From Liolophura sinensis (lineage: Eukaryota; Mollusca; Polyplacophora; Chitonida; Chitonidae), in contig NC_088296.1 of NCBI RefSeq assembly GCF_032854445.1, positions 4,487,246 through 4,551,245 of the forward strand: a stretch of 64,000 nt of DNA, read 5' to 3'. Position numbers and translations under genes: made by a program. Below are positions 14,329-64,000 of the stretch, piece after piece. Below the pieces are notes generated by a model, which was not told the DNA's origin, did no database searches, and saw nothing but the letters and a program-made list of their open reading frames with translations. How positions within the stretch are numbered: the first letter of the stretch is position 1; the number at the start of each line of letters is the position of its first letter.

Positions 14329-15787
14329 ACTCACGGACAGCTAAAGTAGAAAACTTGATTTATTTACGGTGAGTGGCCGAACGAATTAGGCCAAACCAAA
14401 ATAGGCATATAAAGCTTGGCTGTTGTGTCAACTGCACTCTTTGTGGGAGGGTCACATTCACAGTGTCAGTGGTTCTGTTGGTATGTGGGAGGTTTAACGT
14501 TGTGCTTAACAATGTTTCTGTCATAGGACGAAGACGAATCACTAGCTGGGTGTACATACATTGTGTCTTCTTGTAGTAGGGCGAGTCCATACCGCCGAAG
14601 TACTGTCGCCACGGAAGTATCATGCAGAGGACACCAGAGATGACACCATCAATCGGTCACATTATACTGACACCGGGCCAACCATTCATGTTTCCTTGTT
14701 CTAGCTTCTCAGTGCTGACCGCCAAGCGAAGCAGTGACTCCGTTCGGGTTCGCTGCAGGAAATTACCTCACTGAAATGAAAACTGCAGACAGTTCAATAA
14801 AGTTAAAGGCAAGCCTAAAACACTCTCTGTGCACATGTGACAGTCGGCAATATGTGAACAAATTTGTACACGACTCAATCTTTATCCATCTTTTAGACAG
14901 CACAGCAACCAACCTACGGAGCTAACCCTCCGAATGTATAGAGACTTAGGACGTATCCAAACTACACGTATGCACTAATCAAGTCCTTTCAAATTCTGTC
15001 TGATCATCTTCTAAGACAATGGCATGGGCTAGAACATTAAAAACGGATTAAACTTTTCACTTAACTACCTGAACTTAGACACAAAGCAACCATTTGTTGT
15101 CCCTCTAGGCCATGCTAATCACATTTCGTGAATTTCCGACAACAGATGTGTCAAATCAATCATTCAAAGATTATTTCTTGTGTTAGTTACAAAATCTGTT
15201 TACAGCAAAATCACAGGTGGTGGAATGAATGTATGAAGGTGATTAAACATAATCATTTATACGTACGAGGAAAAGAAAAAGGTCTGGTCGTATTAGTTTA
15301 TGCCATTATCATATAATTAAATCATTTCATCTATGTTGTGTATAGTAGCTGTTTGAGTCTTTCATTGTTGCCCTATGTTGACTATAAAGGAAGGCATGTT
15401 CGAATGCCAATTTACACCCATTTAAAAAGAAAGGTCAAGTTTTGAAGGCAAAAAAATTTAGGTGTAAAATCTGACTAATTTTGAAGACAAAATGACTTTG
15501 AAATAAGATGTCAGTTTTAATGATTGGTGTGTGTGTGGGGGGGGGGGGAGGGGGGGGGGGGTAGCGGATTGCAGGATGAACCACCGAACTTTTGGCAAGA
15601 TACTTTTGAACTTTCCAATAAGTGACGACAAGATTTGTACACCATATGGATAGCCAACAACGCGATATTTAACGAACGCTCCTCACCGATCCTCACCGAT
15701 CGCCTACAAATAGTCAAAATATTGTCCTTACTGCTGCTGAACGTCGGGCTTTCAGTCTCCTTAGTCCGATACAGTACATGATCCCTG

Positions 15788-25195: not shown

Positions 25196-25347
25196 TTATT
25201 CCTTGGAATCCGACACTGGATTATCGAAGCTTTGTGGTGCATTTTTCGAAAAGCTTCCGCCATTTTTCCTGTATACCAGATACACGATAGCCCCGCCCAG
25301 CGCGAAGCCGATGATCGCCATAACCACGCCCAAGGCCGCCATGGAAC
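25196..25347 (-). CDS. Gene B last exon: transmembrane helix and cytoplasmic tail
   Basis: This exon starts in phase 1 after a CAG acceptor. It encodes SMAALGVVMAIIGFALGGAI and the rest of a 25-residue apolar helix, then RKNGG and a short polar tail ending in SDSKE and TAA (25196-25198). The tail contains SFDNPV, loosely like short cytoplasmic sorting signals. The paralogous exon of gene A (52095-52177) keeps the helix but ends with one lysine. Confidence 0.9.
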
Positions 25348-30598: not shown

Positions 30599-30668
<70 letters not shown>

Positions 30669-33600: not shown

Positions 33601-36600
33601 GGCTGGTGTACGAATGTCTGCCAGGACGCCAACATTACCGTCTACATAGGCTTACTATGGTAATTGTGGTTGACGGCTGGTATACGAATGTCTGCCAGGA
33701 CGCCAACATTGCCGTTTACATAAGCTTGCTATTATGGCAATAGTGGTTGACGACTGGTGTACGAATGTCTGCCAGGACGCCAACATAACCGTCTACATAG
33801 GCTTACTATGGCAATTGTGGTTGACGACTGGTGTACGAATGTCTGCCAGGACGCCAACATTACCGTCTACATAGGCTTACTATGGTAATTGTGGTTGACG
33901 GCTGGTATACGAATGTCTGCCAGGACGCCAACATTACCGTTTACATACCGTGGCGAAGTACCACTCCCATGATGACGGCACCTGCGCATCCGGCGGCCAG
34001 TCATCACGGAACGTGATCCATACATGACTGTCAACACCATGGGCTTGTCGCTGAAAGGAAGGGAAAGTAATTTATATACTACTTTAATTAAATGAATGAA
34101 AGAATGCTTGGGGTTTTATGTCGTACTTAATAATTTTTCAGCTATATAAAGAATTAGAATCATTAGGTATGCGTAAATATAATGTGTCTTCTCGTGGCAG
34201 ATCGATTCCATGCCGCCAAACTACTGCCGCCACTGAAGTATCATGACGAAGACACCAAACACGGCACCCCATTATACAGACACCAGGCCAACAAGGCCTG
34301 TTTCCTTGCTCTTACCTCTCAGTGCTGAGCGCCACGCTGCAACAAGTGCCATTTTATAGTACAAGACAGCACCTGACTAAAACATATTTCAAACAAAAGC
34401 AGGATTCTCAAACTTTTTAAAAGTGTCATACTTTATTATTTATGATTTCACCGAATAACATATAGAACAAAATGTCAATACTGCACAATGGTGGGTGAGT
34501 GAGGGAGTGAGCAGTTGGAGTTTAACGTCGTATTTTTAGCAATTTTTTCAGTCATATGGCGACGAAGGAGTCCTTAGGGTACATGTACGTGTAATGTGCC
34601 TCCCTGTTGCAGGACGGATTTCCACCGCTCCTTTTTCTAATGCTGCTTCACTGAGACGACTTACCGAAGGCAAGTATCCCGCAAATGGCGGGTATTAATC
34701 GACGCAGACATCTTGAGAATTTTATCCAATCAAACACTTTGCTATCAGATCGCGCGGTCTAAGCTGTGAAGTAACCTTTACCCATTCACCCCATGAAATG
34801 ACATATGATAACAGAGGACTACTGCATAAGACATCATTTGGAGATAGATTACAAAGACTTCCGTACGTGTAGCCGAGGGAACACTTCACACAATGTTGTG
34901 GGACAGGTCTGTATCATTTACGGACCACCTCAGACGTAATATCAGCTGACTTACAAGCCGTGTAATATTCAACGACTGTATCACAAATTATGATAGACAG
35001 CAGCATATCTTCTCGGCCCAAACTACATTCATCAGCCTGGTAAACCCTAGGCCTACTTAGACACGCTGTTCAAATTATACAAATACATTTTCTGTCGTTC
35101 ATTTTACCGCTTAGTCAGCAATTTCTAAATATCAAATATCACTCAGTGAAAAATTCATTAGGGATGCCGAAGGTCTGATGGGAATGAGAAGACGACATCT
35201 CAACGGAAAATACTTAAAGTTAATTAAATCTTATGATACAATTTTCTTTCTCAAAGTTTATGACAATTAAAGAATTTGAAATTTTCTCCTTTGTCTTTCT
35301 TGTACATAAGATTTTTTACTGTTTTCTTTAATAAAATACACCAAAATGTTTTAAACGCCATGTACAAGCCGTTTTGGACGTCTGCGATAACTAGTTTAGC
35401 ATAAAATTCAGCGACAGTCGAATGCCAAGATCAGCCTCAGTCGTGCCTGGATTTATTTCCATTTGTTTCAGAATTGAGCCTGAATCTAGTTGTACAACAA
35501 TCCTAATGTAATTCTGTAAATATGTAACAAGGGTCATAATCACCAACACAATCCCTCCGGAGGCTACGACCTCAACCAGGAATACCCCAGCCGTGCATCG
35601 GCAGGCTTTTCAAACTGTAAATGACATATAGCAGGCTTACTCTATCAATAGTTCAAGGAGTGGAAGAAATATCTTTCCAATATGTCCACTTTCCGCGAAA
35701 GCTGTTTATCGCTTGGACCTTCATCGCCGAAGTTCACAACTTTTATCTGCCATAGGTTACTGCTTTCATTATAATAGGGAAAATAACTTCGACGTTAGAG
35801 AGTTAGAGTAAATGTGACCTCGCCTTGCTGTCGATAATGGAGACGCACTGAAACTGTGTCAAGAGGAAGTTTCACTAAACTTTTACTGGGTTGAAGAAAA
35901 TCTAAAAAAAATATTTAATACCGGTTTATGATACTTTGAATGGTAGTCTTTCAGTGGACATAAACATTAGTCAGGTGCTGTCTTTCATTTTAACGTCTTT
36001 GGTTTGACCCGATTAGGGTTTCATCCCGGGTCTCTCGACTTCGTATTTTAATTCATCAATTAATAAATTAATTAATGTATTTATGTATGCAGTATTTATT
36101 TATCTAATAAATCTGTTTTGAGGAATTCAACAGTCTAACATCTCCATGAGGGCAAACACATGATGAGTGAAACCACGTGTATTGTGATATTCTGTACAAC
36201 AGCCTGACAACGGAATATATTTATTTATTTCTTTGATTGGTGTTTTACGCCCACTTATTCGACGATGGCCAGCATTGTGGGAGGAAACCGGATAGAGCCC
36301 AGGGGAGACCCACTCCCATCTGCACGTTGTTGGAAGACCTGCCCACATACAACCGGAGAGGAAGCCAGAATGAGTTTGACGACCTCTCAGCGATGGCATT
36401 GGTGAGAGGCTCCTGGGTCTTTTTACAATACTTTCACGAAGGGATTTACAGTATGACTCACCACACCCTCGTACTGGAACGAGCCGATGTTGAAATCAAA
36501 GAACTCAGCCGGCGTTCTCATTCTGACCGTGTTATCGTCCACCTTCACCGCATCCACAGCCGTCGGGTCGATCACCGTGGCGGTGCAGTTGCCAAGCAAT

Positions 36601-39600
36601 CGGTCAGTATTGTAAGAAACGCCTACAACACACCACATGTCAATGTCAAAGATAAAGAAGTCTAATGTCGTCTAATACCTGTCGTGTTGTTTGGTTGACG
36701 TAAAAAGTATTGAATATAGGGTTGTTGCCGAACTATGACGCTGAGATCGTCCCAGCTACTTCTGTTGAAATCGTTGACGGTGGACAGACGGTTAATGCCG
36801 GACTGTGACCATATACCCCCGCCCCCATCCCTTCCAAAAGATCGACACACCTACACGTGTTGAAGTGGTGGACGATGGACAGAGGGTTGTTGCCGAACTG
36901 TGACTCTGAGATCGTCATACCTACCTGTGTTGAAGTCGTGGATGGTGGTCAGAGGGTTATTGCCGAACTGTGAGCTTGAGATCCCCCCTAGAGGTTTCCA
37001 GTCATAGCGGAAAAGCTTTGTGGTGAAGTCGTACCATTGCTCAGAAACAAAGACAAAAAAGATTAAATGTTCCAAGCGTTTTTGACCCAAGAAATCAAAA
37101 TGCCATGATGCTGTCTTTTCACTGTCAGAAGACAAACAGCTCTTTGTAAGCATAAGCATTTTTTGGGGGGCGGGGACGGTTATTTGAGAGGGTATAAGAG
37201 GTTATTAAAGGGAGGTGGAGGGTTTATTATTATTTTAGTTGGAATATGAACGCGGCATTGAAGAGTACTTCAATTATATACTGGTACATGAGTGGAGGAA
37301 ACGGGAGTACCCGGTGGAAAACACTGGCCATCAAAAACCTCACCAAGACATCTAACAAACTTACTGACGTAAAATATCAGTCAAACAAGCCGTATTTAAG
37401 TAATCGTCCTCATTCGCTATGGGCCGATTGGTGCGAGAGAAACCACTGGGATATAGCTGGATGATTGATGAGTTGATGGGTTTATTGATTGGTTGATTGA
37501 TTGATTGATTGTTTGATTGGTGTGTAAAACCATAATACAGAATTTTTCACTTGTAAGATGGCGGTCAGCTCTTTGGGTGGAAGGCCTGGAATGCCCGAAC
37601 TAAACCACCGACGTTTAAAAAGTTACTGACGAACTTCCCGACGTGTGTCACACATATCTCACACCATATTGGTGGAAGACCGCCCGACTGCACAAATACC
37701 TACATGGGCGTAGACGACCAGTTATTGTCACCAAGACCCCACAAGCTGTGAGAGCGGGAAATCTGAAAACTCCGAACCCAAGGCCGGATTTGAACCCACA
37801 CATCGACCTGCATCTTACTTTGGAGGCGCAGTTTACACTCCCTAAGCTAGCGGAGGGAAGAAGAGTTCTTGCAGAAACTTAGCTATTGTACCCCTGCTTG
37901 TCCGTGAACTCACTTGTTGATGACTAATGATCTTAGCCTCTGGAATCACGACTTCAGCTTCAAAATTGAAATAGTTGGACGGGGTGGGCAGTTTTTTAGA
38001 CATCTTCCTCCCGGGACACAGCGTTCCTGCTGGCACCTGCAGTCACAAACACAGTAATTAAGGAAAACCTCAATGTTTTAAATTCTTTTAAATTAACCTG
38101 TGTAAAAATAGACCTGTGTAATTCCAAGCAGTGGTCAATTCACCTCGAACACTTTATCGGCGGTGTCAATGTAAGGTCTATAATGGCTGAACTCGTAGAT
38201 GTGATGATAACTGTGCATCTGACCGGTATCGTCCTGACCCCTCCCTGTGATCTCACACCGCACGGGCAGCTGGTCCTCATCGATAGCCTCCTGCCAACCG
38301 CTACTGTCTGCAATACAGCAATTTTGTATTTTTTTTATTCATTAATTAATTAATTTATTTATTTATTTACTTGATCGTTGGTTAATGTCGTGCTTTAGAA
38401 CATTACACTTATATACGATATGGCGAACAGTTTTATGAGAGCGGAAACAGTGCCAGGTGTAAACCACCGACGTTTGGTAAGTTACCGACGAACTTTCCCT
38501 CGAGTGACGTACAGATATGCTCACCTTACGGCTGGGCAGTAAGTTGTTTTCAACGGACGTTAGACTGTGTTAATGACAGCTTAGTGTCACCAAGGTCCGA
38601 CAAAGAATGAAAGCGATGTAAAATTAAAGACGTACAACATGAGAGTAAGACCAGAGCAACAACGACTCTGTGATACTTGGCAAATGATCACACGTATCCG
38701 GTGAAATATGGTCTCTTGTCAGTTTACCTATTCGACGTCAGTGGTCTAAAAAAATAACGCTGATGACAGCAGAAATATTACTACATATACTACAATAAGG
38801 TTGATGCTTTTTACAATGGCAATAAATTTCGTAAACAATAATAATGACAATCCTAATGCTATAGATCACAAAGAATTTATACTGGAGATCTGATGAATAT
38901 GTATTAAATTAAATACTACAAAGGTGTTAAATAAATTGAGTTTTTCTTCCATTTGAAGAAATATGCACTGCGTTGCAAATTACCTTTTACAGAAATACTG
39001 GACAATATATCAAACATAATATGTGTAACTGGTAATTTATTCAATGAGTGGGAAGGCATACCTGTGAAGTACCACTTGACTAGGCTAGTCGCTTGCAGGC
39101 TGGGCCAGTATGTGCAAGACTGCCAGCCGTCCACGCGAATACCTCTGACGACGAATTTGCCCAGGTATTTCTCTTTGGTATCACCCCCAAACCTGAGCGC
39201 CCCATTAGCCGTGAAGATTCTAGACATGGAGCTATTCACGGCTTTGAAACCGAACAGGAAGTTGTTTTCATCGGTGGTCAGAGCGTCAGCCGTGCATGTG
39301 TCTGTGGATAAATCATAGAAACGACAACAAGCTTTTAGTACTGCCATCCGAGTTATTGGGTCTCCACGGGCTCGTCACTGGCTGGGCGCAAGTACGCCAC
39401 TTCCACACGACTACACGATTAGCTCGCCGCTAGCAGACATCTGACTTGTCAATAACACACCAATAACTCACCAATAGCACACCAACAACTCATCACCAGC
39501 ACACCAATAACTCACCACTAGCCGACACTAGCACACCAATAACTCACCATTAGCCCTCCACTAACTCACCAGATGCACATAAATAGCTTGCCACTAGCAC

Positions 39601-41430
39601 ACTAATAGTTTGCTCGGGAAACCCGGAATCAAAACCGGGTCGGGTCATACCAAAGACTTTAAAAATGGTATTTGCTGCTTGTTTGGCGCTTAGTGCGGAG
39701 AGGATGGAGCAAGGAACAGGACTGGTTGGCCCAGTGTCAGTATAATGTGACTGGATGAGGTGTCTTCTGCATGATACTTCAGTGGTGGTAGCACTGGCGG
39801 CATGGACTCACCCTTCGAGAAGAAGACACATATGTACATACAAATAATGACTCCTTGTCGCCACATTACTGAAAAAAGGTATGACGTTAAACCCTACGTA
39901 TTCAATCACTCAATTTTACTAATAGCTTGCCTATTGCACGCCAGTATCCCGTAATTAACGCTCCACTATAATGTCAGTAGCTTGCCACTATCACGCTACT
40001 TGCTCGCCACTAACACCAAGATAAAACACCACAAACACCACACCACTAGAACGTCATTAACTTTCCTCCACAGTCTCATTAGCTCGCCACTATCACATCC
40101 CTAGAACGTCAAAAGTTCGCCACTAACACCCGGCTAAAACATCAATAGAAGGTCATTAACTCACCACGAACAAACCACATGCACACCACATGTTTATTAT
40201 TAGCATAACACTACCATACCAGCTTACCTCTATCACACCAGCTCGTCACTTGCTTGCCACTACACTACCGCTAGCCCACCGCCAGCACACCTCTATAACA
40301 CGTCGCTGGCACACCTTTCGCACGATTCTACCTTTCCATTACATACCAAAACTGTCACCAAAAGTTACCGTCTCATTCATCATACTGTTTAACTCACTGG
40401 GTTCAATGTGAATTACAAATTTTGAAGCCATAGTGCATGACATCTTTCACACAATCTCACTAAAGTCAGATCTAGTAGCCGCTCCCGTACGTACTTGTCG
40501 CCAACTAGACCTAAAGTTAGATCTTCCCCTCTTGGTTCAGTTGAATTTTTCATTACGTATTTTCGGCGAATGCGCTCATAGGCCTATGTGTAGTGAAACA
40601 AGTATTTTAATTGGTTCTAAAATCAGACGTCTCAGCTGGCCTCAGACTGATCTTCTCCAAAGTAACATTTGACAAACTTTAAACTGAAGTCACCTTTCTG
40701 AAAGTTCCTCTAACAATTGTTCCGTAGAACCAAGCCTGCCTTGCGTTATTTGGCCTCTAGCCAACAGTTTGTAAACGGATCCGTTAAATTGTCTCACTCG
40801 GCTGTTCAAAACCATGTGATACGTGCATTTTGGTGGATTGTTTTATCGTGTGTCCTTGATTGCCGTGAGGTCAAGTTAAGTTCATGCTGGCTCTCTCTCC
40901 GGCTATTAGTGAGAAGCTCTGTCACCCACCTGCGGATGGTCGTGGGTTTCCTCCTGGCCCTGCCCGGTTTTCTCTCACCATTATGCTGTCCGCCGTAGTG
41001 AAAGTGACACATTCTTCAGTACGGCGCAAAACACCAGTCAAATAAATAAAGGGATGAATGTCCATGGTTGTTTACACACTAGAGAGCAGGAAAACATTTG
41101 AGCCCATTTCATGCCACATATTTTAATCATTTGTATGTAAGTTGTTGTTGTATTGGGAACGCGAGACGTTGCGCGATTTTGCGTGATAACACCAACAGAC
41201 GACGACGTTATACTTACTGTCGGTGAGGTCGACAGTAAAGATTTCGTTGGTGTCGTAGTTATAAATGAGCTGTCCCGTGCTGTTGTCCTGTGTCTGTACA
41301 ACTGAGCCTCGATTGTGCTGCTGATCAAAGTACTCGATCACGTCCGTGGTGTAGTTCCGGTCCATCAGATTGCACTCCACCCGAGCCGTGTAAGTCTTTG
41401 CCAGGACCGGCTTCTTGGGACCCCCTTTAG
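25196..41430 (-). CDS. Gene B: modular single-pass membrane protein (LolA-like-repeat type), 5' end not found
   Basis: Thirteen exons join in phase to 616 aa plus stop: 41218-41430, 39062-39301, 38144-38307, 37914-38036, 36925-37039, 36462-36622, 33949-34050, 30845-30919, 30269-30389, 29092-29201, 27239-27418, 25450-25546 and 25196-25347. All junctions are GT-AG and the sum is an exact multiple of three. The first exon begins with a split codon, so a leader (presumably signal-peptide) exon lies upstream of 41430. The extracellular part contains a segment YTARVECNL...IEYFDQQHNRG...LIYNYDTNEIF (residues ~16-65), then LRFGG...YLGKFVVRGIRVDGWQSC (~105-134). A related second pass (QWYDFTTKLFRYDW...IHDFNTG, ~247-285) follows, then LLGNCT and SPVRVSDIQ. 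Residues 568-592 form one membrane helix, and a 24-residue tail with SFDNPV follows. I recall similar large uncharacterised proteins in molluscs, brachiopods and amphioxus with LolA-like domains. That family name is from memory and unsure. Function unknown; a lipid- or ligand-binding surface protein is an inference. Confidence 0.85.
26020..26500. repeat. ~20-bp minisatellite rich in donor-like GTAAGT, gene B intron
   Basis: About 23 copies of GAGTGGGTCGGTGACTTACC-like units lie between exons 27239-27418 and 25450-25546. On the transcribed strand the unit reads GGTAAGTCACC. About a dozen copies preserve GTAAG. Two more degenerate units follow at 26580-26630. Confidence 0.88.
26675..26850 (-). 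repeat. SINE-2, internally deleted, gene B intron
   Basis: Both ends of the family are present with a shortened middle. Confidence 0.65.
27055..27205 (-). repeat. SINE-1 5' half in gene B intron
   Basis: The complement of the core and tRNA-like head is present (GGTGAGAGGCTCCTG and the head complement). The 3' tail is missing. Confidence 0.75.
27440..28368. repeat. ~105-bp composite minisatellite at the acceptor of gene B exon 27239-27418
   Basis: About nine copies of a unit made of GTGTAAGTGTGGCTG-like subunits. It begins ~20 bp from the acceptor at 27419. Because the unit is a multiple of three, it is open for 340 codons on the minus strand (His/Thr-rich), but that frame hits a stop at the exon border and is not the exon frame. 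The part 28370-29091 holds no recognisable feature. Confidence 0.85.
30602..30666. repeat. (TA)n microsatellite, gene B intron
   Basis: About 32 TA units lie between exons 30269-30389 and 30845-30919. Confidence 0.95.
31085..31332. repeat. 20-bp minisatellite, gene B intron
   Basis: Twelve or so copies of GTACAACCTGTATGGACAAT. It lies ~165 bp upstream of the acceptor of exon 30845-30919. Degenerate copies of that acceptor (CATTCTTTCTGCAACCAT at ~31051) stand beside it. The unit is open in several frames on both strands, which I regard as fortuitous. Confidence 0.92.
31446..31685. mobile_element. Palindromic MITE-like element, copy 3 (gene B intron)
   Basis: Outer arms AAAAATTAATCTGTTAATTT and GTTAAAATTAAAATTTTTAA; inner arms AGAATGTATTCTG and CAGAATATAATTCTAGC. 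Confidence 0.75.
31752..32090 (-). repeat. SINE-2, gene B intron
   Basis: It begins with TTTTACGTCGTACTAAACAA and the TCATATGACGACGAGGAGTC block. The head complement (ACATCGAAGTGGACACTAAC) is degenerate. Confidence 0.78.
32600..33948. repeat. ~75-bp minisatellite starting at the donor of gene B exon 33949-34050
   Basis: About 18 copies of a 74-77 bp unit with GAATGTCTGCCAGGACGCCA and GTGGTTGACGGCTGG. The array touches the 5' splice site of the exon. Variants recur about every 375 bp (for example GCTTGCTATTATGGCAATAG at ~32980, 33350 and 33727), so there is a five-unit higher-order repeat in the proximal part. Confidence 0.92.
34103..34690 (-). repeat. Two SINE-2 copies in tandem
   Basis: One copy spans 34103-34370 and a 3' half spans 34500-34690; both are minus-oriented. 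They lie just upstream of gene B exon 33949-34050. From 34690 to 36215 I see no recognisable feature. Confidence 0.75.
36215..36420 (-). repeat. SINE-1 next to a gene B exon
   Basis: The TTTATTTATTTCTTTGATTG tail complement and core are present, ending ~40 bp downstream of the donor of exon 36462-36622. Confidence 0.78.
36678..36924 (-). repeat. Three degenerate copies of the end of gene B exon 36925-37039
   Basis: Blocks near 36849-36915, 36752-36806 and 36678-36745 repeat the exon end (plus-strand TGTTGAAGTCGTGGATGGTG … GGGTTATTGCCGAACTGTGA) inside the following intron. None keeps a clean copy of the original donor. Confidence 0.85.
37505..37880 (-). repeat. SINE-3, adjacent to gene B exon 37914-38036
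   Basis: It shares ACCACCGACGTTT, GAACTTCCCGACGTG and the CCCCACAAGCTGTGAGAGCG block with other copies. Confidence 0.7.
38365..38625 (-). repeat. SINE-3 fragment, gene B intron
   Basis: Shared GTAAACCACCGACGTTTGGT and GACGAACTTTCCCTCGAGTG blocks. The head is missing or decayed. Confidence 0.6.
39420..40330. repeat. Degenerate ~20-bp repeat near the acceptor of gene B exon 39062-39301
   Basis: Loose repeats of CACCACTAGCACACCAATAA type, interrupted by a SINE-2 (39605-39912). The acceptor lies ~120 bp away. Confidence 0.7.
39605..39912 (+). repeat. SINE-2 inside an intronic minisatellite
   Basis: The head complement to tail reads GCTCGGGAAACCCGG … ATGACGTTAAACCC. It splits the 39420-40330 CACTAGCACACC-type repeat, so it inserted after that array formed. 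Confidence 0.72.
40862..41050 (+). repeat. SINE-1 3' part
   Basis: Core, GAGTACGGCG-like end and AAATAAATAAA tail are present. Confidence 0.78.
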
Positions 41431-50655: not shown

Positions 50656-52094
50656 CTTTTAAGGTTTTAACTGTGACTTTATCCAGGATTTACCCTTGAT
50701 CTACCAAAAAAAATAAATAAATAGATAAATAGATAAATTTCGCATCGCTTTCACAACCAGATATAGGACATATCAAATAGGTTTATTCATTGTAGTATAT
50801 ACACCAAAGTAATAAATAACGATGTTAACACTAATCTGGCAAGACACAGCAAATCTCCAACTTGTTCTAATCAAAAATCCCTGACGTAGAATTCAGTATG
50901 TATGTCATGCGTGGTCTCAGACAATGTATGTTGTTAAAATACGCGTGCAATGTAATTATGAGTGTTTTTTAACATATTAATAATTATACAAAATAAAGGT
51001 AGCTGTACACTTTGTGTTTTTCTTTCTTTATTTCATCATTTTTTTTTAAATATTAAAGAAAAGTATGCCACTCAGAAAATCAAATTCATTTGCGGGAACA
51101 AAACCCATTTTGTGTGCATATCCTGACTGTATAAGATATACTAGACTACCCTCACAAACGGCTAGGTTTGTGAAAAGCCTAATAGTTGAAGTCTTACCAC
51201 ATGCATATATGTAAATGAGCAGGATTTAGTTACAAATCATTAGAGGTCTGCTCAACGTCACTTACTCCTATTGTAAAATAGATATATGCATTAAGTGACG
51301 TTCACACGGTACTGTCCTCGAGTCGACACATCTTATTGGACTAGAGTCGACATAAAAAGGACATGCGCTACTCCATGCGATGGTAGCATTCGACAAATCG
51401 CATCGTCTTTACCTAGCTACCTTTAACTTACAAGTAACACCGAGCATTAATCTTCATAGAACGGTTTTACCTCCCAAAACAGAGACTCGTGCAAAAGGTC
51501 AACTGACCAGTATTCTCTTGCAAAACGTGTGTACTAAGTAAGCAGTTTGACCACAAAACGTGTGCACTACGTAAGCAGTTTGTCCACAAAAACGTGTGTA
51601 CTACGTAAGCAATTGGTCCACAAAACGTGTGTACTACGTAAACATGTTTGTCCACAAAACGTCAGGGAAAATACAGGAGGCTATATTACAGCATTGGCCG
51701 GAATTTAGGTAGGCGGTAAATGTTCCCTAATTTATGAGCTGTATATTTTAGAAGAAATCAGTACAGTGTCTATCATGTAATACGTTTTTATTTCGCTTTG
51801 ATAGAAAACGTGTCAATAATGTATGGTTGTCAACATAACTAACCCTGTAAATATGATCCACGGGATACTCTGAATTACAGTCAAATGGAAGATAGAAAAT
51901 ATCTATGAAATGAAAAAAAAAAACTGCGTTTTTAAAAAAACGAACACGATATAGCCCACCCAGCAGTTACATGACAGCGTTTGCTGGGTTTTAAAAACTG
52001 CTTCCTTTTCTTCAATGTCTTTATATTCAGCCATACAGTGCTTAGAGGTCAATCGTTGTTGTTGTCGTTGTGCTTGTAGTTGTTGTTGTATGGA

Positions 52095-52177
52095 TCACTT
52101 AAAGAAAAAGAAGGCGGCCACTGCCCCGATTATCCCTCCTACTATTGGCATGGTGATGCCTATAGCAGCCATGGCGC
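52095..52177 (-). CDS. Gene A last exon: membrane helix with almost no tail
   Basis: The exon encodes AMAAIGITMPIVGGIIGAVA, then AFFFFK and TGA at 52095-52097. The hydrophobic run ends the protein, so it is either a tail-less single-pass anchor or a GPI-attachment signal. The gene B counterpart has a 24-residue cytoplasmic tail. Confidence 0.85.
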
Positions 52178-55100
52178 CTGTGGTATAAAACAAAGTGACC
52201 GGGTGTTAACATAAGCAAAATGACCGGGTGTTAATATAAGCAAAGTGACCTGGTCTTACTATAAGCAAAATGACCGGGCGTTACTATAAGCAAAATGACC
52301 GGGTGTTAATATAAGCAAAATGACCGAGTGTTACTATAAGCAAAATGACTGGGTGTTAATATAAGCAAGTGACCGGGTGTTACTATAAGCAAAATGACCG
52401 GGCATTACTATAAGCAAAATGACCAAGTGTTACTATAAGCAAAATGACCGGGTGAAAAAGGACTGTGTTTTTAATAAAAGCAAAAGGACTGTGTTTTTAA
52501 TAAAAGCAAAAGGACTGGGTTTTTAATACAAGCAAAAGGACTGGGTTTTATTAAAAACAAAATGACTAAGTTTAAACAAGAGCAAAAGGATTGGGTTTAT
52601 AATAAAAGCAAAATGACCGCGATTTAATAAAAAGAAAAGAACTGGCTTTTTAATAAATGTAAAGTAACTGGGTTTCAATGAAGGACTACATGCAATTTTA
52701 ATAACGGCAAAATGTCACAGACTCAATCAGTCTAAAATTCAGTTCTTGCCAGTTATGTTGCATCTCTTAAACCAGGAGTTTTATCAGGTATATCTGGAGA
52801 AAGGCGGCGCAACTCCACCGGTTTCCTCAACCCATAAACCCAATCACCGTAGTTTAAGTCATAAAGCCTTGCGTTCGGCATTTAACGTCAATCGCAACTT
52901 AAGACACAGTAAAAATAAGAATCATACAAAGATCGGATCCTAGCTGGCACACTGGATAAACTGCCTGCTCGCTACAACTATTAAGGTCCAGTGACCAGTG
53001 GGGTCTCGTGTTCGAATCCAGCTCTCGCTGTTTCAGCTGCGCTTTTAAGTCATGCAGTTTATCAGCAAGCTGGTGAAGGGCTGTGGTTCACTCATTGCAT
53101 ACCGGTTTCTTCCATCAGCCTCAAGCCTTCATCAATTACAGTAAACAGGCTAGAATCATATGACGATTAAATCCTACCAAAAAGAAAATATATGGTTACT
53201 TAAAAATGTTCAGGAAAACTGTCGGCGACGGTTACCTGGGGTGTAGTGGGCAGACTGAGAGTCGGGCTGAGCGGTTCCCGCGACGTAGGTCAGCGTCTGT
53301 AAGCTATCCTGTATGGCCACCAGGTAGACTTCCTGTGAACACCAGGGAAGATGGGCGAGAAACAAGTCAGCGTCAAAATATGAGAAATAATAGTCTTTTC
53401 TTTACAAGCTAGCAAAAACCTTACTGACCAGCCTTTACATTATACACTAACAGGAGCCTTTACACTAAACACTAACAGGAGCCTTTACATTATAAACTAG
53501 CAGGATAATTTATATTATACACTAGAAGGAACCTTTACATCATACTCTAATAGGAGCCTTTACATTGTACTTTAGCAGGATCCTTTATATTATACACTAA
53601 CAGGATCATTTACATTATACACTAGCAGGAGCCTTTAAATTGTACACTAGCAGGAGCCTTTACATTATACACTAGAAGGAGCCATTACATTGTACACTAT
53701 CGGGATCATTTACATTATACACTAGCAGGGTCATTTATATTATACACTAGCAGGAGCCTTTACATTATACACTAGCAGGAGCCTTTACATTATACACTAG
53801 CAGGAGCCTTTAAATTGTACACTAGCAGGAGCCTTTACATTACACACTAGTAGGAGCCATTACATTGTACACTATCGGGATCATTGACATTATACACTAG
53901 CAAGAGCCTTTAAAATACACACTAGCAGGAACCATTACACTGTACACTAGCAGGAGCCTTTACACTGTGCAATAGCAGGAGACTTAAATTATACCCTATC
54001 AGACTCCTTTATATTATACCGTATCAGAAGCCTTTCACTTATACACTGGCAGGAGACCTTAAATTATACACTGGCACAAGAGCTTAAATTATACACTGGC
54101 AGGAGACCTTAAATTGTACACTTGCCTTTAAATTATACACTATCCTTTACACTGTGCAATAGCAGGAGTCATTCCATTATACACTAGCAGGAGCCTTTAC
54201 ATTATACACTAACAGCATCATTTACATTATACACTAACAGCATCATTTACATTATACACTAGCAGGAGCCCTTACATTGTAAACTAGCAGGAGCCCTTAC
54301 ACTATAAACTAGCAGAATCATTTACATTGTACACTAGCGGGAGCCTTTAATTATTCACATGCAAGAACCTTCACATTATACACTAGCAAGAACCTTCACA
54401 TTATACACTAGCAAGAACCTTCATATTATACACTACCAAGAACCTTCATATTAAAGATCAATAAGAGCCTCTACATTATACATTACATTATAAATGAATT
54501 ACATTATAAACTAGCAGGATCATTTATATTATACACTAGAAGGAACCTTTACATCATACTCTAATAGGAGCCTTTACATTGTACTTTAGCAGGGTCCTTT
54601 ATATTATACACTAACAGGATCATTTACATTATACACTAGCAGGAGCCTTTAAATTGTACACTAGCAGGAGCCTTTACATTGTACACTAGAAGGAGCCTTT
54701 ACATTGTACACTATCGGGATCATTTACATTATACACTAGCAAGAGCCTTTACATTATACACTAGCAGGGTCATTTATATTATACACTAGCAGGAGCCTTT
54801 ACATTATACTAGCAAGAGCCTTTACATTACACACTAGTAGGAGCCATTACATTGTACACTATCGGGATCATTGACATTATACACTAGCAAGAGCCTTTAA
54901 AGTACACACTAGCAGGAACCATTACACTGTACACTACCAGGAGCCTTTACACTGTGCAATAGCAGGAGACTTAAATTATACCCTATCAGACTCCTTTATA
55001 TTATACCGTATCAGAAGCCTTTCACTTATACACTGGCAGGAGACCTTAAATTATACACTGGCACAAGAGCTTAAATTAGACACTGGCAGGAGACCTTAAA

Positions 55101-58100
55101 TTGTACACTTGCCTTTAAATTATACACTATCCTTTACACTGTGCAATAGCAGGAGTCATTCCATTATACACTAGCAGGAGCCTTTACATTATACACTAAC
55201 AGCATCATTTACATTATACACTAACAGCATCATTTACATTATACACTAACAGCATCATTTACATTATACACTAGCAGGAGCCCTTACATTGTAAACTAGC
55301 AGGAGCCCTTACATTGTAAACTAGCAGAATCATTTACATTGTACACTAGCAGGAGCCTTTTATTATTCACATGCAAGAACCTTCACATTATACACTAGCA
55401 AGAACCCTCACATTATACACTAGCAAGAACCTTCATATTAAAGATCAATAAGAGCCTCTACATTATACATTACAGCAAGCGTATTTGTGTTTTATAGCAA
55501 CAGGAATCTTTAAATTATACATAAGTACAAGACTTTTCATTATATACACCAGTAATAGGCTTTGTTAGAAATCTTCATATGAGATATACGGCTCACCTCA
55601 TCTCCTAACAATCGTATCACAAACTGGCCCGCCGCTATAGTGTCGTTAATTGCTGCAACTGCCATAAATAAGGGCACCTCTTGTGTAGTGCTCTGAACGT
55701 CACCGACCTTAGGGGCTACGTCCAAAACCTCAAACTCAACCGTCACGTTTGTATCAGACATCACAAACTACAACAACAAAATTGAAGGTTAAGGATAGTG
55801 CACATACAGCACACAAAGCCTCTATTAGTCTATCAAAATGCTATGTTCAATATGACACAGTATTACGCAATACACTCACATTACACATCACTCAAACAAC
55901 AGACATTTTGCTAAATTTAACACTGTTTCATCTTCAGATTTTGTTCGGGCTTAACTTGACTTTTAAAACCATTTCGGTACGATCATGGCGGCATTTCCAG
56001 TGTAATACCGGCTAGTCAATATGCCAACATGGCGTGTATGACGCCCTCCTACTCCAAAGGGGCACCATGCCGAAACGACCCAGTCAAATAACACTGACAG
56101 AGGGGAACATAATCCTTGTGGCGGCCATAAATCACTGCATTTAGAATATAGATTTCAATACAAGCTTTCAGAGTGGTTGATTACACAATATTCCAGACAG
56201 TTACGTTATAAAATGCTACAGTTTAGAGAGTAATAACCAGGGAACCGGAAGAACTGTGATAGCTGGCCAATGGTCGTATGTAACCGATGAAATAAGACCT
56301 CTTGTCAGTTTTCCTCAGTTACGGTCTTATTTTAACTGTAAATTCTTAAAACTCAGTAACTCACACGCCCCTAGCACTATCATTCAAACAGTGCTAGGTA
56401 AATTAGGCCAATGATGTAAATTGCAATTTATTAGAAATCGCTGGTCTAGAATTGCTGAAAAACTGTGTTGCCACACATAATAAACAACGACATTAAGACA
56501 GTTCAAAGAGACCTGGGCCCAGACATTTTTTATCGTACATTTGTCCAACGATTTTTTGTGCGCCACAATTACGTAACCATTGGCCTATATGCGCGATTAT
56601 TGCACATGTACGACGTCTTTGTGAAGCTGGACATAAGGCCCGAATTTATCGAGCAACTTAAGTCATAAATTGCAAGTTCTTAAATAGCCTTAAAAAATCA
56701 TAACAGGAGAGAACCCATGTTGAGGTTAGTACATTGTTCTGCAGTAACGAATCAGTGTACAAATTTTAAACTTTCGAAAACAAAACGTTTTATTTGCAGC
56801 TGTGTTTGAGTTTTTGACTTAAGTCTTAAGACGTTTGATAAATACTGGTCCAGGCCTCGGAGAATCATAGTCCACTAGCAGACGTACAATAATGGAGACT
56901 TCAGAATGGAGAGTGTGATTTCAAGATACGCCTTGACTGAACTTTTGCTCGCTAGTGTCAGACTTACATTGAGGTGAGCTATCCGAACTGGTGACACCCC
57001 GGCCACGCCCGTAATCGTCAGTAACAGGGAGTATTTGAAGATACTTCTGTCCTTTTGAATGAAATCGTTGTAAACCCCTGAAAATTGAATTGACCTTGCA
57101 CTGAAACTTTCCAGCGATTTTACTTCAAATTGCCGCTGTACAATTCCACAGTAAACACGCTGAATAAACACATAGGAAGCACCGTAACTACTATGATTCC
57201 TTTCACTGCAAAGACTGAGTGAAAGGCAAATATACAAGTTCAACGATGGACGAGTATATAATAAATAAGCGTGCACAATACCATTTTGTTGTTCACATTG
57301 TCGTGGGGTACCGGCCGCAATAGCGTACGCTTCGGGAGCGGTAGATCCAGGGTCAATCCTGGGTCGAGTAACACCTAAGACCTTAAAAGAGCAAGCTATA
57401 ACTTCCTCGCTTGGTGTACAGCATGAAGGGGAGAGTGCAACGACTGGTTGACCCGTATCAGTATAATATCTATAATTCTCTGACATGGTACTGGTTAAGG
57501 ATAAAATGTCTTACACTTGATCTTAATCTATAAGTGTATAATGTGGCCAGCGTTCCGTGGCCGTTTAATTTAATACTTTCTGGTGCACACCTTCTGCTTC
57601 TTGACCAGTAACATCGCAGGTTAGAATTTACCCGTAGCAAATTCAATTTTGGCGTAACACTCTGTGTTAAAGTGAAACATTCTTTAACACAGAGTAAGGA
57701 GGCTGTCCACAAATGCATAAATCTATAATCTACGTGTATTCTGTGAATGGCGAAGTCTTTTATTTATTTATTTGATTGGTATTTTACGCCGTACTCAAGA
57801 ATATACGACGACTCACTTATACGACGGCAGCCACCATTACGGTGGTTGGAAACCGGGCACAGTCCGGGGGAAACCATCCGCAGGTTGCTGACAGACCTTC
57901 GGCCGAGAGAAAGCCAGCATGGACTTGAACTCACAGCAAGCGCATTGGTGAGAGACTCCTGGGTCATTTCGCTGCGCTAGCGCGCTAACCTACTGAGCCA
58001 CGGAGGCCCCTGGCGAAGTCATGCAGCAGAGGTATGTTGTAATCTGAAGAGAGGGTTAAAATGTGACTCACTTACATCCATATAAATCTCAAACACATAA

Positions 58101-60041
58101 TCGTTGAAAAGTGATAGCTACAGAAGGAATTTCAAAAGCAATCGAATTATTTTCATCGAATCAGAGCCACGCTTACCCGGCAGTATGAATGTGACATAAA
58201 CTCTGTCCCGGAAGGCATAACAGTTACTGACGTCAAACTCAAAGATGTCCGGCTCGCCTTCGAAGAAGTTGTACATGTTGTACTGCATGTGCATGTTGTA
58301 CTAGGAATACAAAGAAGAGCAGTCCATGTTAATGTGTCCTTGTGTTCAACAGCTCTAACACAATCTCTATTACCCTAGTACTACAATTTATGTAGTGGGG
58401 AAGTGTGAATAGGTAAATCGGAACTCAGTTTAAAGATAAGAAAATGGTTTTGTTTGACCATGTAGTATAAGGGGTTCTCTCAGAATACAACTGGATTTCG
58501 AGCATTGAGTTCTCTTGTTAGGCTTTATCATTCTTTCGGTTGACACTTAGTTCGTGAGTTCCATTTTCATTTTATAAACATCAGTTTGTCTCTAAGGCCT
58601 GCTGTACTCACTGAGGGTATCTCCACTTTAAGGCTAATAGGCTCCCCATCTTCCAAAAGATTACCGCTAGCCTCAATCCAATCCGTCTGGAGAATAAAGG
58701 GAAAACGAGGTGAAAACATAGTGAAGACGAGGTAAAAACAAAGTTTAAGTGGTGAAAACATAGTGAAGACGAGGTAAAAACAAAGTTTAAGGAGGAAAAC
58801 AAAGTGAAGACGAGGCGAAAAGAAATTAAGACGAAAAAAAGAAAAAAATTGAAGGCAAAATGAAATCAACCTTACTACAAAGTGAAAACACATTGAAAAC
58901 AAAGTGATGGAGTACTGTTTTTCCATTTCGAAACTTAGAAGAGGCAAATAATATCAGGGAAATCCTATATCTGATTCTACACTGGTAAGAGAGTACAGTA
59001 TGATTACACAATTGTTCATATCTTTCAGAGTGTGGTTGATTTTGCTGTCTCAGTTATTCAGTGTATATAATACTGTAGCTAGATGACAGGTGTAATCTTG
59101 AAAGATCGATTGGTTTAGATTGTTGACAAGGAACGATCATTATGGCTGGCGACTGGTATATGAATGCTTTTTGAATTCTCGGTCAAATACAGAATGTTTT
59201 TTTTGTTGTAAGGAGTCGGACAAATTCGTCGTTTTCACTCACTGTAGCGAAGTACCAGGTCCATGTGGAGTTAACCCCAAGTCCTGGGGGCCAGTCAGTT
59301 CTTGTCGCCACCCAGGCGTCGCAGTCGATCAACCGCTCCTTGTGCTGCAACAGTACAAGAAGAAGTACAATCCGTAGGAGAGGACCGTAGTGTAGTGGTT
59401 AAAGTTGCTTGCAATGAGTTGAGGGTTCAAACCTGGCGTTAGACAGTAAATTTGGGATCTTGGTGACAATGAGCTAATTTGAAGAAAAGATCTTTTCTAC
59501 CAATATGGTGTACGTATCTATAAATAACTCTTGGAAAAGTTCGTCAGAAACTTGACTTAGGTCGGTGATTTACTCGGGGCTTTTCCACTTTCGCCAACCC
59601 ATAAAAGTGGCCCGCAGTGAATAATTGAAAACTCGTTAGAGTATAAGATAACAATTAAATAAATAAATGAACAAAGAACAATGTAACCAGTAAATTAGCA
59701 CCAATGTAGACCTACATAATACTGAGTCACACAAAGTGACATGGGAAAGATAATTTACTTTGATGGGAGAGAAAAGGAAGTATAAGCAATCACTAATTTT
59801 TCCATCAGCAATCCTGGTTGCTGAGAACTTTTTTCCTTACCTTCCCTATATAGGTATACCGCGTGTTGTCGAAGGAGAAGAACTCGTTTGCAGTCCGCAT
59901 CCGAACGTGAGCCGAGTCCGTGTTTTTCACGTCAAATCCGCCTGACTCTATTGGTTTGTAAGTGCAGTTGCCGACTAAAGGGTCGTTAACGTAGGCCACG
60001 CCTGATAAACAAAGAGGTGCACAAACTGATTATTTCTCTTT

Positions 60042-60074
<33 letters not shown>

Positions 60075-63000
60075 AAACTTTCGGTGTTTATTAATAAGAT
60101 TCACGCCAAAACAACTTCATCAAAGAAAACGCTACAGGCATACATGCAACTATTAGAAATATATTTGATTCGTGTTTTATGCCGCACTCAAAATATTTCA
60201 CTCTCGTCCATGGGCCAGACCAGATATTATTACCACCTGAGATGACCAAATCTAGTTGGTACTAATATGTTTACAGGGTCAGTAGAAGTAAATTAAGAAA
60301 TAATAGCCTTTCTGCGATGGTAGCTTTATCACGCAATTTGATAAAATGTAAAACCATCTTAAAAGGCGTTGTGCAAATTACAAAAAGCAAGAGAAACTTC
60401 AATATATCGTGGACCCTCACTTAATAATACAATTAGACCAATTTAAAGGGGTGATTTGTATTCTTTACTAAGGGTAGAAATTTAGCAGTCCACATTATTT
60501 CTGTATTTCATGTACGTTATTAGCTGAATATTCAGCTGACCTGTACATTTACATGCAGGTTTTCAGCTGGTTTGATAACAGTTTATCAACAGTTTACATG
60601 GCCAGCTTGTTTTATCTACGCCCATCATTACGGTAAGTTAAGGTAGATTTGCTCAGGTAAGTAAACGTTCATATCATTTCCTTTATACTCCTATAAATAC
60701 AGGCAACATTATAAGCACAGTGCATCTGAAGAATGTATTTTTTGTATAATAAGACATTATGTTAAGTCGTGGATGTCAGTCACCTATTGTGCGGTGGGCT
60801 GTGGGTATGAGTGTGTGTGTGTGGGCGGTGGGGGGGGGACATATGTCTCAAAAGCTTTCTTACCTGTGTTAAAGTCGTGGATCTCAGTCACCTATTGTAT
60901 GGTGGGCTGTGGGTATGAGTGTGTGTGTGGGCGGTGGGGGGGGGGGACATGTGTCTCAAAAGCTTTCTTACCTGTGTTAAAGTCGTGGATCTCGATCACC
61001 TGGTGCGCTGTTGGGGGTTTGTATATGTATCTCACAAGCTTTGTTTTCAGGTCAAACTCTTCCTGGAAATAAACATGAGGTAAATACATAAGGCTATACA
61101 ATCCCTAAAGGAGCAACAACGACGTATCAACGGGTGATATTTGGCAATGGTCCCACCTAACCGGTGAAAGACGGCCTCTTGTCAGTTCAGCTCAATTAGG
61201 GATTTTTTTGTTTAACTGTTCATGTAACGCTTTAAATGAAAGTAACTTACAATGCCCCTAGCAATATAGCTAATTCCCTAAAACGCCCGAAATGTAATAT
61301 GTCAAAGCGAGCACCGGTAAACCATCTTTCAACAGTTATCCAGCCGTTTAAACTTTCGAATCGGACAACTCAAATCAACATCTGCCATGTCTGGATTTTT
61401 TTTTTCGACGTCGGGCACGGTGATAAGCTGCGAAAATCTTATCCTACCCAACATTGTCTTTAAAGAATTACATGCCCTGTAAACAGAATGTTGGGTGGGA
61501 TAAAGTTTTCGCGGCCATCAGGTAGGGACGTCCAGCATAGCTTTGGGCTACACACTTATCGTATGTTTAGTCCAAGTGTCGAATTCGTCGAGCCGATTCG
61601 ATTCGACAAATCGCATCGTGTGAACAAATCTCGTCGGTTTCGATGAATCGTACACATTACAGCAGCAGATATTTCCTCTCCATGTTCATAGAGGAGTTAG
61701 TATGTACTTTCATCTCCAATATATCATACAAGAATAACGGCAGTTATTTGCATAGATAAACTGAACACACACTAAGGTTGTCACTAGAAAACGGGCCCAG
61801 GCATTCCTTGTATAATTAATGGAAGGAAGTGTTTTCTTAGTTACTAAGAAAACATGGCAGATTTTTTTCGTATAATTAATGAAAAAACTCGGACAGACAT
61901 TGTACTAGTGTAAAGTTCTACGTTACCTTAGTTCATGTAGCCATAGAGGTATCATATACCTTCACGATGTAGCTGAATGAGAAAACGTGTTCAGACATTA
62001 TACAAGGTCATAATTACCTTCATGTAACTGATCTCCTTAGTGTCGTAGTTAACCACTTCACTCATGAAGGAAAAAGCCTTGCTGGGCACCGGAAGTGACT
62101 TCGTGTTGATTCGCCCAGGACATGGATAGTCCATCGGCGCCTGCACACGAAACAAATATTACTATTAAAAATTGCAGGAAACGTCTCTGTCTTAGAAAAT
62201 AGGCTGATGTTGTACGTTACAGGGTTGTCAACCAAAATGAAAACTGATTCACTACCTCACTGTCTTGGTAGAGATGGGGTGAGGCAGCGAGGTACCCAGT
62301 CAGAAAGGGAGCGAGGTCTGGAGTTACCAAGGCAGAGAGGGAGTGAGGCCTGGAGGTACCGAGGCAGAGAGGGAGTGAGGCAGCGGGGTACCGAGGCAGT
62401 GAAAGAGCGAGGCCTGGAGGTACCGAGGCAGACAGGGAGTGAGGCAGCGGGGCACCGAGGCAGTGAAGGAGCGAGGCCTGGAGGTACCAAGGCAGGGAAG
62501 GAGCGAGACCTTGGGGTACCGAGGCAGAGATGGGGTGAGGCAGCAAGGTACCCAGTCAGAAAGGGAGCGAGGTCTGGAGATACCAAGCCAAAGAAGGTGC
62601 GAGACCTTGGGGTACCGAGACAAAAAAGAGAGGTTTGGAGGTACCGAGGCAGAGAGGGAGTGAGGCAGCGAGGTCTGGAGTTACCAAGGCAGAGAGAGAG
62701 CGAGGCCTGGAGATACCAAGCCAGGGAAGGAGCGAGACCTTGGGGTACCGAGACAAAAAAAAGAAAGGTCTGGAGGTACTGAGGCAGAGAGGGAGTGAGG
62801 CAGCGGGGTACAGATGTAGAGAGGGAGTGAGGCAGCGGGGTACCGAGGCAGTGAAGGAGCGAGGCCTGGAGGTACCGATGCAGAGAGGTTATATATCTGC
62901 TCCCATATAAATGCAAATTTCATAAATTCTGCCTTTAAACTTCACGCAAATAAAGTAAAGTGATGAGTCTTATAAAAAGTTACATTTTTACTCACGGGTT

Positions 63001-63582
63001 TATTTTGGGTAAGGTCATACCAAACACCATGAGTAATCAAGACTCGAAATAACAAAAACGAATGGTAGTCGTAGCTCTGTAGCGCCATCACCTCAGATTC
63101 TAACACCATCAGTGATCGTGCCACAAAACTGGAAGATCTCACAATAGCACTATAGTGCCCTCACAGACCTCAATTCCATCAGTGATCGTGTCACGGAACC
63201 GTAAGATCTCACAATAGTACTATAATGCCCTCACAGACATCAATACCCTCAGTGATCGTCTTACTGAAGTGGAAGAACTTACAATAGCACTATAGTGCCC
63301 TCCTCTCAGACCCCAATACCATGAGTGATCATGTCTCAGAGCTGGAAGAACTGACAATACCATCAGTGATCGTGTTGCTGAACGGGAAGAGCTCACAGTA
63401 GCAGTATAGCACTCCTACCTCAAAGACCCCAACACCATCAATGATCGTATCTCGGAACTGGAAGAATTCATAATAGTGCTCAAAGTTGTGAGGTGTCTCT
63501 CCCTGTTTGTTCACTATACCCTTCACCCAGCACCGAACCGGAAGTTGCTTACGCCCAATCGATGTGCCCCAAGCGTTGTTAG
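52095..63582 (-). CDS. Gene A: tandem paralogue of gene B, partial (5' end beyond window)
   Basis: Eleven exons join in phase to 432 aa plus stop: 63419-63582, 62018-62140, 60972-61062, 59841-60001, 59243-59344, 58612-58686, 58177-58300, 56968-57077, 55597-55767, 53236-53332 and 52095-52177. Their lengths (164, 123, 91, 161, 102, 75, 124, 110, 171, 97, 83) match the corresponding gene B exons (164, 123, 115, 161, 102, 75, 121, 110, 180, 97, 152), with identical phases. Shared landmarks include LPVRC, CPGR, TKL+RY, IHDFNTG, GNCT, MRT.EFF, GEP, SPVR and the LDVAP/LDAAP..GDV block. Gene A lacks the long tail: after the helix (residues ~407-431, AMAAIGITMPIVGGIIGAVA then four Phe) it ends in K and TGA. 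Exons equivalent to gene B 41218-41430 and 39062-39301 must lie past 64000. Function unknown, as for gene B. Confidence 0.85.
52190..52680. repeat. 25-bp minisatellite at the acceptor of the last gene A exon
   Basis: About 18-20 units of ATAAGCAAAATGACCGGGTG-like sequence start ~12 bp from the acceptor of 52095-52177 and drift to AAGCAAAAGGACTGGG forms further away. The rest of the intron (52680-53235) shows nothing. Confidence 0.92.
53410..55530. repeat. ~25-bp minisatellite filling the intron before gene A exon 53236-53332
   Basis: Around 80 copies of an AGCAGGAGCCTTTACATTAT type unit occupy nearly the whole intron between 53333 and 55596. The order of variant units at ~53495-54480 repeats at ~54510-55470, so a ~1-kb block was itself duplicated. 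Confidence 0.93.
57312..57470 (+). repeat. SINE-2 5' half, gene A intron
   Basis: CTTCGGGAGCGGTAGATCCA through GACCCGTATCAGTATAAT. The 3' half is absent. Confidence 0.75.
57757..58013 (-). repeat. SINE-1, near full length, gene A intron
   Basis: The tail is at 57757, the core in the middle and the complement of the complete head (GAGCCACGGAGGCCCC) at the end. Confidence 0.88.
58690..58880. repeat. ~42-bp repeat at the acceptor of gene A exon 58612-58686
   Basis: Two near-perfect units (GTGAAGACGAGGTAAAAACA, AAGTTTAAG) plus degenerate flanks, starting a few bases from the acceptor. Confidence 0.82.
59382..59660 (+). repeat. SINE-3, gene A intron
   Basis: Head GACCGTAGTGTAGTGGTTAA with B-box GGTTCAAACC, then the CACCAATATGGTGT and TCGTCAGAAACTT type blocks. 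Confidence 0.75.
60762..60971 (-). repeat. Tandem copies of the end and donor of gene A exon 60972-61062
   Basis: A ~107-bp unit made of the exon end (ATCCACGACTTTAACACAG on the minus strand), the GTAAGAAAGC donor and ~70 bp of intron is repeated. The copy ending at ~60865 keeps the donor intact; the copy at ~60765 has lost it. Confidence 0.88.
62245..62890. repeat. 32-bp minisatellite, gene A intron
   Basis: About 20 copies of GGTACCGAGGCAGAGAGGGA + GTGAGGCAGCGG type units. Because 32 is not a multiple of three and the unit lacks stops in all frames, it creates overlapping open frames of up to 219 codons on both strands. These are not genes. Confidence 0.92.
63070..63418 (-). repeat. Five or so copies of the end of gene A exon 63419-63582
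   Basis: A ~75-bp unit consisting of about 45 bp of exon end (contains GATACGATCATTGATGGTGT on the minus strand) and ~30 bp of intron start repeats down the intron. In the copies the donor GT is lost. Confidence 0.88.
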
Positions 63583-63904
63583 CTGGAAACAGACCAAGCA
63601 TTCAGTTTCAAAGGATGCATCAAATAGCAATTCCCCGAACTAAAGGCATTCAGTTCAAATCAGAGCACACAACACAAAAGCTGAAGAACATTTAATGGCC
63701 CATTCTATACAGAGGATGATCCCAGAAGTCATGTCTTCTTTAACTTTGCTTTGTATCCGTTAATAAGGGCGTCTTAGCCTAGGTCATGACCGTTAGTGGT
63801 TCACCATGATACGAGTTCTCTACATTTACAGTCATTTGGTCTGGACGTTAAAAAAGCAAAACTGCACACAGAGGACCTGCATAGAGAGACTTTCACCTAG
63901 TTCA

Positions 63905-64000
63905 TCTCTGAAGTACTGGTGGATCTACGTACAGGCATCCTCCTGGTTGATTTCGTACTTCACCTGTGAAGTACTAGTGGGCCTGCTTAGAGGCGCCTTC
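63905..64000 (-). repeat. Two degenerate copies of an exon end at the window edge
   Basis: Both copies contain GAAGTACT.GTGG on the plus strand. The outer one reads TACTTCACAG/GTGAAG on the minus strand, like the end of gene B exon 39062-39301 (TGGTACTTCACAG), but a TAG precedes it in frame. The true gene A exon is presumably beyond 64000. Confidence 0.6.

Follow-up and report, generated by a model that had tools for sequence, protein, structure and literature searches.

Tandem repeats occupy many introns of two paralogous genes, A and B, of the chiton Liolophura sinensis, and the question that this locus raises is whether such arrays are truly tied to splice junctions and, if so, how they come to lie there. 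The stretch of DNA analysed, referred to here as the window, comprises 64,000 nucleotides (G000:C2:4487246-4551245) of an assembly of 609,464,459 bases in 632 contigs. According to the available part of its report (PMC11068029), this assembly was first published as that of Liolophura japonica; the name has since been corrected to L. sinensis (PMC12441733).

Gene models of the two paralogues

Both genes lie on the minus strand, and their splice sites were set by frame and homology, via translation of the joined exons. The 13 exons recovered for gene B (25199..41430, 12 GT-AG introns) join into a single open protein, with no stop over the joined stretch. Exons 3-13 of gene A (52094..63582, 10 GT-AG introns), supported also by spliced alignment with B, join in one frame with a terminal stop only, while exons 1 and 2 fall outside the window, in locus L009. 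GT-AG borders were thus present in 22 of 22 introns, several exon lengths were equal in the two genes, and the models of both are sound. A Pfam search of gene A returned no match, and that of gene B a weak, sub-threshold match to ependymin. Genes related to A and B were located on contigs C6 and C7.

Tandem arrays in the introns of A and B

Arrays were called by TRF with a period of at least 9 and a score of at least 50. They were found in 5 of the 10 introns of gene A lying wholly within the window and in 6 of the 12 introns of gene B, or 7 of 12 with a marginal 16-bp x 2.0 array that appears when gene B is scanned in its own orientation. Minisatellites are thus present in introns of both paralogues, as had been claimed from the sequence alone. 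Leaving out the one marginal B array reduced the analysis set from 17 to 16 arrays, of which 4 span a junction and another 3 come to within 30 bp of one. This total of 7 compares with 3.0 expected (P = 0.013), and crossing alone with 1.8 expected (P = 0.08); the original prediction that most arrays start at a junction was therefore too strong. Of 13 internal arrays in the window, 4 had a junction less than or equal to 30 bp away where 1.04 would be expected (P = 0.013), with P ranging from 0.013 to 0.071 at other distance cut-offs.

The arrays that approach a junction without crossing it, all on the minus strand like the genes, include a 74 bp x 18 array (32626..33947) 1 bp from the gene B exon 7 donor (33948), an array (58696..58834) 9 bp from the gene A exon 8 acceptor (intron end 58687) whose coding strand is pyrimidine-rich, and two adjacent 25/26-bp arrays (52191..52675), the first of them 13 bp from the gene A exon 13 acceptor (intron end 52178). 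Near the gene B exon 11 acceptor (27419), the distance to the TRF array at 27451..28358 is 32 bp or 128 bp, depending on the TRF run. Further inside introns of the same strand lie a 32-bp unit array called by TRF in gene A intron 3-4 (62289..62888), a 25 bp x 83 array in gene A intron 11-12 (53430..55469), and 20-bp unit arrays in gene B introns 7-8 (31091..31320) and 11-12 (26024..26495). Three homologous introns, e5-e6, e7-e8 and e11-e12, carry arrays in both genes, in agreement with the original prediction.

Repeat units that contain the exon end

In the crossing arrays of A and B each unit carries an exon end plus the donor, and the donors concerned are those of gene A exons 2, 3 and 5 and of gene B exon 5, all again on the minus strand. 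The clearest case is gene A exon 2, whose true donor lies at window coordinate 65066 (locus L009) and has 14 copies behind it, with GT intact in 13 (13 copies and 12 intact with a slightly shorter search span). The bulk of this array is outside the window; its distal end, at 63905..64000, holds two recognisable copies, one at 63963 and one, lacking GT, at 63905. The array across the gene A exon 3 donor (63418) covers 63105..63466 and includes 48 bp of exon; its copies at 63302 and 63159 have decayed and lost the donor GT. Across the gene A exon 5 donor (60971), an array at 60760..61001 has a 108-bp unit with ~30 bp of exon, and the second copy (60863) is identical over a 30-bp probe, its donor intact. 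Finally, the gene B exon 5 donor (36924) lies in an array at 36690..36983 with a unit of ~70 bp, 59 bp of it exon, and two older copies, at 36854 and 36759; TRF called 36839-36983, and the lower edge was placed by eye from one of the older copies.

The arrays at 60971, 63418 and 36924 had been described as abutting their splice sites. Their tie to the junctions stands, but the units contain the exon end, together with the donor at 60971 and 36924, the copies at 63418 having lost GT. They are better described as tandem duplications that span the junction, and not merely as arrays next to it.

The donors at 36924 in B and 60971 in A are homologous, and the two arrays have a 22-bp exon end in common. 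Because their intron parts and unit lengths differ, the two duplications look independent. The claim that units are unrelated between the genes accordingly fails for the shared exon end of the e5-e6 pair and holds for its intron parts.

Age of the arrays and of the introns

Six paralogues on C6 and C7 hold 4 arrays altogether, one of them within 30 bp of a junction. Crossing arrays were absent from the recovered introns of C6b (12), of four C7 genes (43) and of C6a (6), the last in a stretch with further arrays outside the trusted models. Since the relatives have no crossing arrays at these junctions, those of A and B, judging from the sequences compared, in all likelihood do not descend from the family's common ancestor. 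The related-gene cluster on C7 (G000:C7:35754000-35825499), with 2 arrays in 43 recovered introns, contrasts with the C2 genes.

The arrayed introns of gene A have positions and phases in common with B and with other paralogues, indicating that they are old. This bears on the model of intron creation through tandem duplication of an exon segment (Rogers 1989; ATP2A1; potato RdRp), which, as presented in the accessible part of PMC4974935, likewise involves local tandem duplication that takes in splice signals, and which might be invoked here as splice sites adjoin exon sequence in the units. In the chiton, however, pre-existing introns appear to be growing and gene A, which the finding of old introns covers, has no new intron position, so that creation of introns by this route is very improbable. 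Ordinary intronic minisatellites resemble the chiton arrays in being local and in having gene-specific units, but in the chiton the unit takes in exon sequence along with a splice site.

Junction-spanning arrays in dynein and myosin genes

We sampled 16 dynein heavy-chain stretches and 12 myosin-head stretches, chosen blind to their own arrays and comprising 167.5 kb with 185 accepted introns (median 427 bp). The dyneins represent 16 of about 18 loci and the myosins 12 compact clusters from a longer list; kinase loci L001 to L008 were left out. For 15 of the 16 dynein genes, downstream pieces were added once arrays further upstream in the gene were known, and the myosins followed the first result on dyneins; in no case were a piece's own arrays known beforehand. 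Gene models were made with a purpose-written spliced aligner. Some contained doubtful short introns, and 16 stretches around crossing or doubtful arrays were therefore read by eye; the other arrays rest on the models. The 47 merged arrays became 38 after two L039 parts flanking an N run were joined and 8 arrays (L022 x2, L039 x2, L040, L041, L046 x2) were dropped owing to a cut at the locus end or to unbounded or low-confidence introns. The array classification table, phases and robustness sums were entered by hand, and for some arrays the unit length follows a lower TRF row or the visible copies.

Among these 38 arrays, some of which sit in introns outside the 185 counted, a junction is crossed by 14 and approached to within 30 bp by 7, the other 17 being internal. 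The original refuting condition, a lack of junction preference elsewhere in the genome, did not hold in these introns, as 21 of the 38 arrays cross or come within 30 bp where 12.4 would be expected (P = 0.001). Both the arrays and their association with splice junctions are genuine and extend beyond A and B. Arrays that cross donors and others that cross acceptors were found in both gene families, on several scaffolds, for example at a myosin donor in L038 (31-bp unit, 18 copies), a dynein donor in L022 (83-bp unit, 10 copies), the L036 donor (31-bp unit, 6 copies), a dynein acceptor in L027 (53-bp unit, 13 copies) and a myosin acceptor in L039 (32-bp unit, 43 copies, the most found at any junction). 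One crossing case is borderline (L038, 18 bp x 2.2), and the intron ends are guessed in L042 and L043.

The acceptor-containing array of L039 (983-2806) is broken by the N run, and its length is given only as assembled. Such a run inside an array could point to an assembly artefact, which we consider scarcely credible as a general explanation given that the copies differ among themselves, that the arrays lie on many scaffolds, and that the longest array seen (~2.5 kb) would fit inside a HiFi read of average length, 8.3 kb according to the available part of PMC11068029.

Introner-like elements, in which one sequence family recurs in many introns, were considered as a source and rejected: blastn of the 17 crossing arrays gave a single match, the 22 bp shared by A and B exon 5. 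Repeated local duplication, as opposed to inheritance of one array, had been proposed for this locus, and both the presence of only this one matching pair, in exon sequence, among 17 spanning arrays and the six paralogues without a crossing array at recovered junctions speak in its favour.

Placement of the arrays compared with chance

As a null model, a unit of the observed length could be placed at any point of the pre-array intron, or overlapping either of its ends, with all placements tolerated. Under this model 14 of the 38 dynein and myosin arrays cross a junction against 7.2 expected (P = 0.003). The excess was seen in the myosins alone (9 against 3.7, P = 0.004), with 5 against 3.4 in the dyneins alone (P = 0.22), and in arrays of at least three copies (9 of 22 against 4.2, P = 0.009), with 5 against 3.0 in arrays of fewer than three (P = 0.14). 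Arrays within 30 bp that do not cross numbered 7 against 5.3 expected (P = 0.26), and 11 against 7.0 over all 58 arrays (P = 0.07). If the original units were 1.5 times longer, the crossing excess would have P = 0.046, and if twice longer, 14 would compare with 11.2 expected (P = 0.17). Without the three borderline or unbounded cases, 11 of 35 cross against 6.4 expected (P = 0.028), and the same reduced set with units 1.5 times longer gives P = 0.17.

Across the 17 crossing units, the proportion of exon is spread uniformly between 0 and 1 (mean 0.53, KS P = 0.74), as expected from random endpoints. When short arrays were examined for microhomology at their ends, run-over past one unit was between -10 and 30 bases, in no consistent pattern. 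By junction type, 14 donors and 4 acceptors are affected (P = 0.03; 18 arrays, one borderline), or 10 and 4 without A and B (P = 0.18). We also considered detection bias, whereby an array stays visible for longer if its exon copy is conserved, and rejected it as the full cause of the roughly twofold excess, since the excess is also present in arrays of at least three copies.

These data bear on the possibility that splice junctions are hot spots of tandem duplication, for instance through R-loops or breaks linked to transcription or splicing. Such hot spots would account for the twofold excess in dynein and myosin introns, for duplication of the exon 5 donor in both A and B with different intron parts, and for three affected donors in gene A together with the overall donor bias. 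Yet the excess weakens with doubled units and without the three doubtful cases, lacks significance in the dyneins and in the shorter arrays, and has no clear counterpart in nearby arrays that do not cross, while the unit endpoints are random relative to the junction. We regard hot spots as unlikely to be the principal explanation, although a serious competitor. Seeding at junctions, as originally proposed, thus retains the twofold excess as an argument but loses much of its force, as that excess is model-dependent and significant in the myosins only. Together, the null-model tests and the uniform exon share suggest that random duplication plus tolerance accounts for roughly half or more of the crossing arrays, with a mild preference for junctions possible but unproven.

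Decoy splice sites within the arrays

Copies were searched at 17 junctions, and 139 were found at 16 of them, A exon 3 giving none at the threshold used. Intact GT or AG is present in 126 of the 139. On paper, use of these 126 decoys would cause a frameshift in 82 cases and an in-frame stop in 43, leaving the frame intact in a single case. Of 131 decoys rated with a simple score, 46 equal or exceed the true site. All 9 in L022 and all 8 in L041 reach that strength, compared with 1 of 17 in one L038 array and 1 of 40 in L039. These sequences are most simply explained if the exon-proximal site is chosen by position.

At splice positions the unit consensus is kept in 615 of 666 cells, compared with 4142 of 4472 elsewhere in the units (P = 0.81), so that these positions look neutral, a result that could also reflect homogenisation of the copies. 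The decoys might instead be functional, for example in isoform control or transcript decay, and the many intact sites would fit this idea. Against it, splice positions are conserved no better than the rest of the unit, 125 of the 126 uses would break the frame (although transcript decay could exploit that), and the six paralogues have no crossing arrays at recovered junctions; we consider a function improbable.

For acceptors as a whole, splice positions appear eroded (165 of 180 against 1824 of 1908, P = 0.026). General selection against acceptor decoys was nevertheless rejected, as the signal comes from the single array L027, without which the counts are 141 of 144 against 1435 of 1500. In that array (L027:3872-4551, gene orientation) just 6 of 12 decoy AGs remain intact, against 95% conservation over the remainder of the unit, and selection against decoy acceptors may have acted on this one array. 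The donor bias, if real, would fit splicing during transcription, since decoy acceptors, which are transcribed ahead of the true one, would then be the more harmful; this is speculation.

Resemblance to the mirages of amphioxus

Repeats that span exon-intron boundaries were named 'mirages' in the amphioxus Adh3 gene and are also described in globin, troponin C and PGBD5 genes, apparently leaving splicing undisturbed, according to the accessible portions of the two reports (PMC3087553, PMC3902484). As described there, mirages are minisatellite-like tandem duplications of 5' and 3' boundaries that leave the true exon whole, while many of the copies carry splice signals. The chiton units likewise span the boundary, at both 5' and 3' sides, and carry AG or GT signals in most copies, and by their sequence the arrays are to be classed as mirages in that sense. 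They differ in occurring in a mollusc, not a cephalochordate, in being common among the unrelated genes sampled, and in reaching 43 copies. Tests of frame and of selection on splice positions were added for the chiton. A further mark of mirages is array length that differs among haplotypes; the chiton arrays are known from the sequence of one haplotype. No report of mirages in molluscs appeared among the matches listed in our literature search, which covered open-access titles and the beginnings of abstracts, with subscription literature mostly outside.

A proposed model of random duplication and tolerance

The explanation that we favour, with a probability of about 0.7, is randomly placed tandem duplication tolerated through exon-proximal splice choice. 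Short stretches of the genome would be duplicated in tandem at essentially random places and would then expand into minisatellites, by slippage or unequal exchange. Duplications wholly within an exon would be eliminated by selection, whereas those inside an intron or straddling its border would persist, because the splice site beside the intact exon is still used, so that every copy becomes intron. In the straddling case, the true site would come to be followed, on its intronic side, by a row of decoy junctions. The sequences establish the arrays, their anatomy and their occurrence in unrelated genes, the neutral appearance of the splice positions and the damage predicted from decoy use; the choice of the exon-proximal site, the subsequent expansion and the filtering by selection are inferred.

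Several observations sit less comfortably with random duplication and tolerance. The twofold crossing excess, holding also at three or more copies, indicates that more than tolerance may act; the predominance of donors is not predicted by plain tolerance; and splice positions are eroded in the acceptor array L027. A wider reading, which we hold tentatively and at somewhat less than even odds, is that several per cent of introns carry intact decoys, that roughly one in three of these matches the true site in score, that the spliceosome ignores them by position alone, and that junctions are perhaps mild hot spots, donors more than acceptors.

In the papers found, mirages are an oddity of a few lancelet genes, and their frequency in the chiton sample suggests a general route of intron growth. 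They also provide many natural cases of near-identical splice sites competing by position, which, if our reading is true, amount to a natural experiment on exon-proximal splice-site choice. Decoy junctions of this kind could mislead gene prediction.

Other duplications

In the dynein locus L033 (C1:54194400-54200700), two family matches overlap in one domain, one of them with two stops, and two neighbouring predicted acceptors both have AATCTGACAG, so that a larger exon duplication, absent from the TRF list, is possible. Within the window, positions 7650-9850 and 12570-14970 hold related segments of ~2 kb, with many reading-frame pieces more than 90% alike, and each segment has its own array of a 60-bp unit, at 8386-8865 and 13285-13939.
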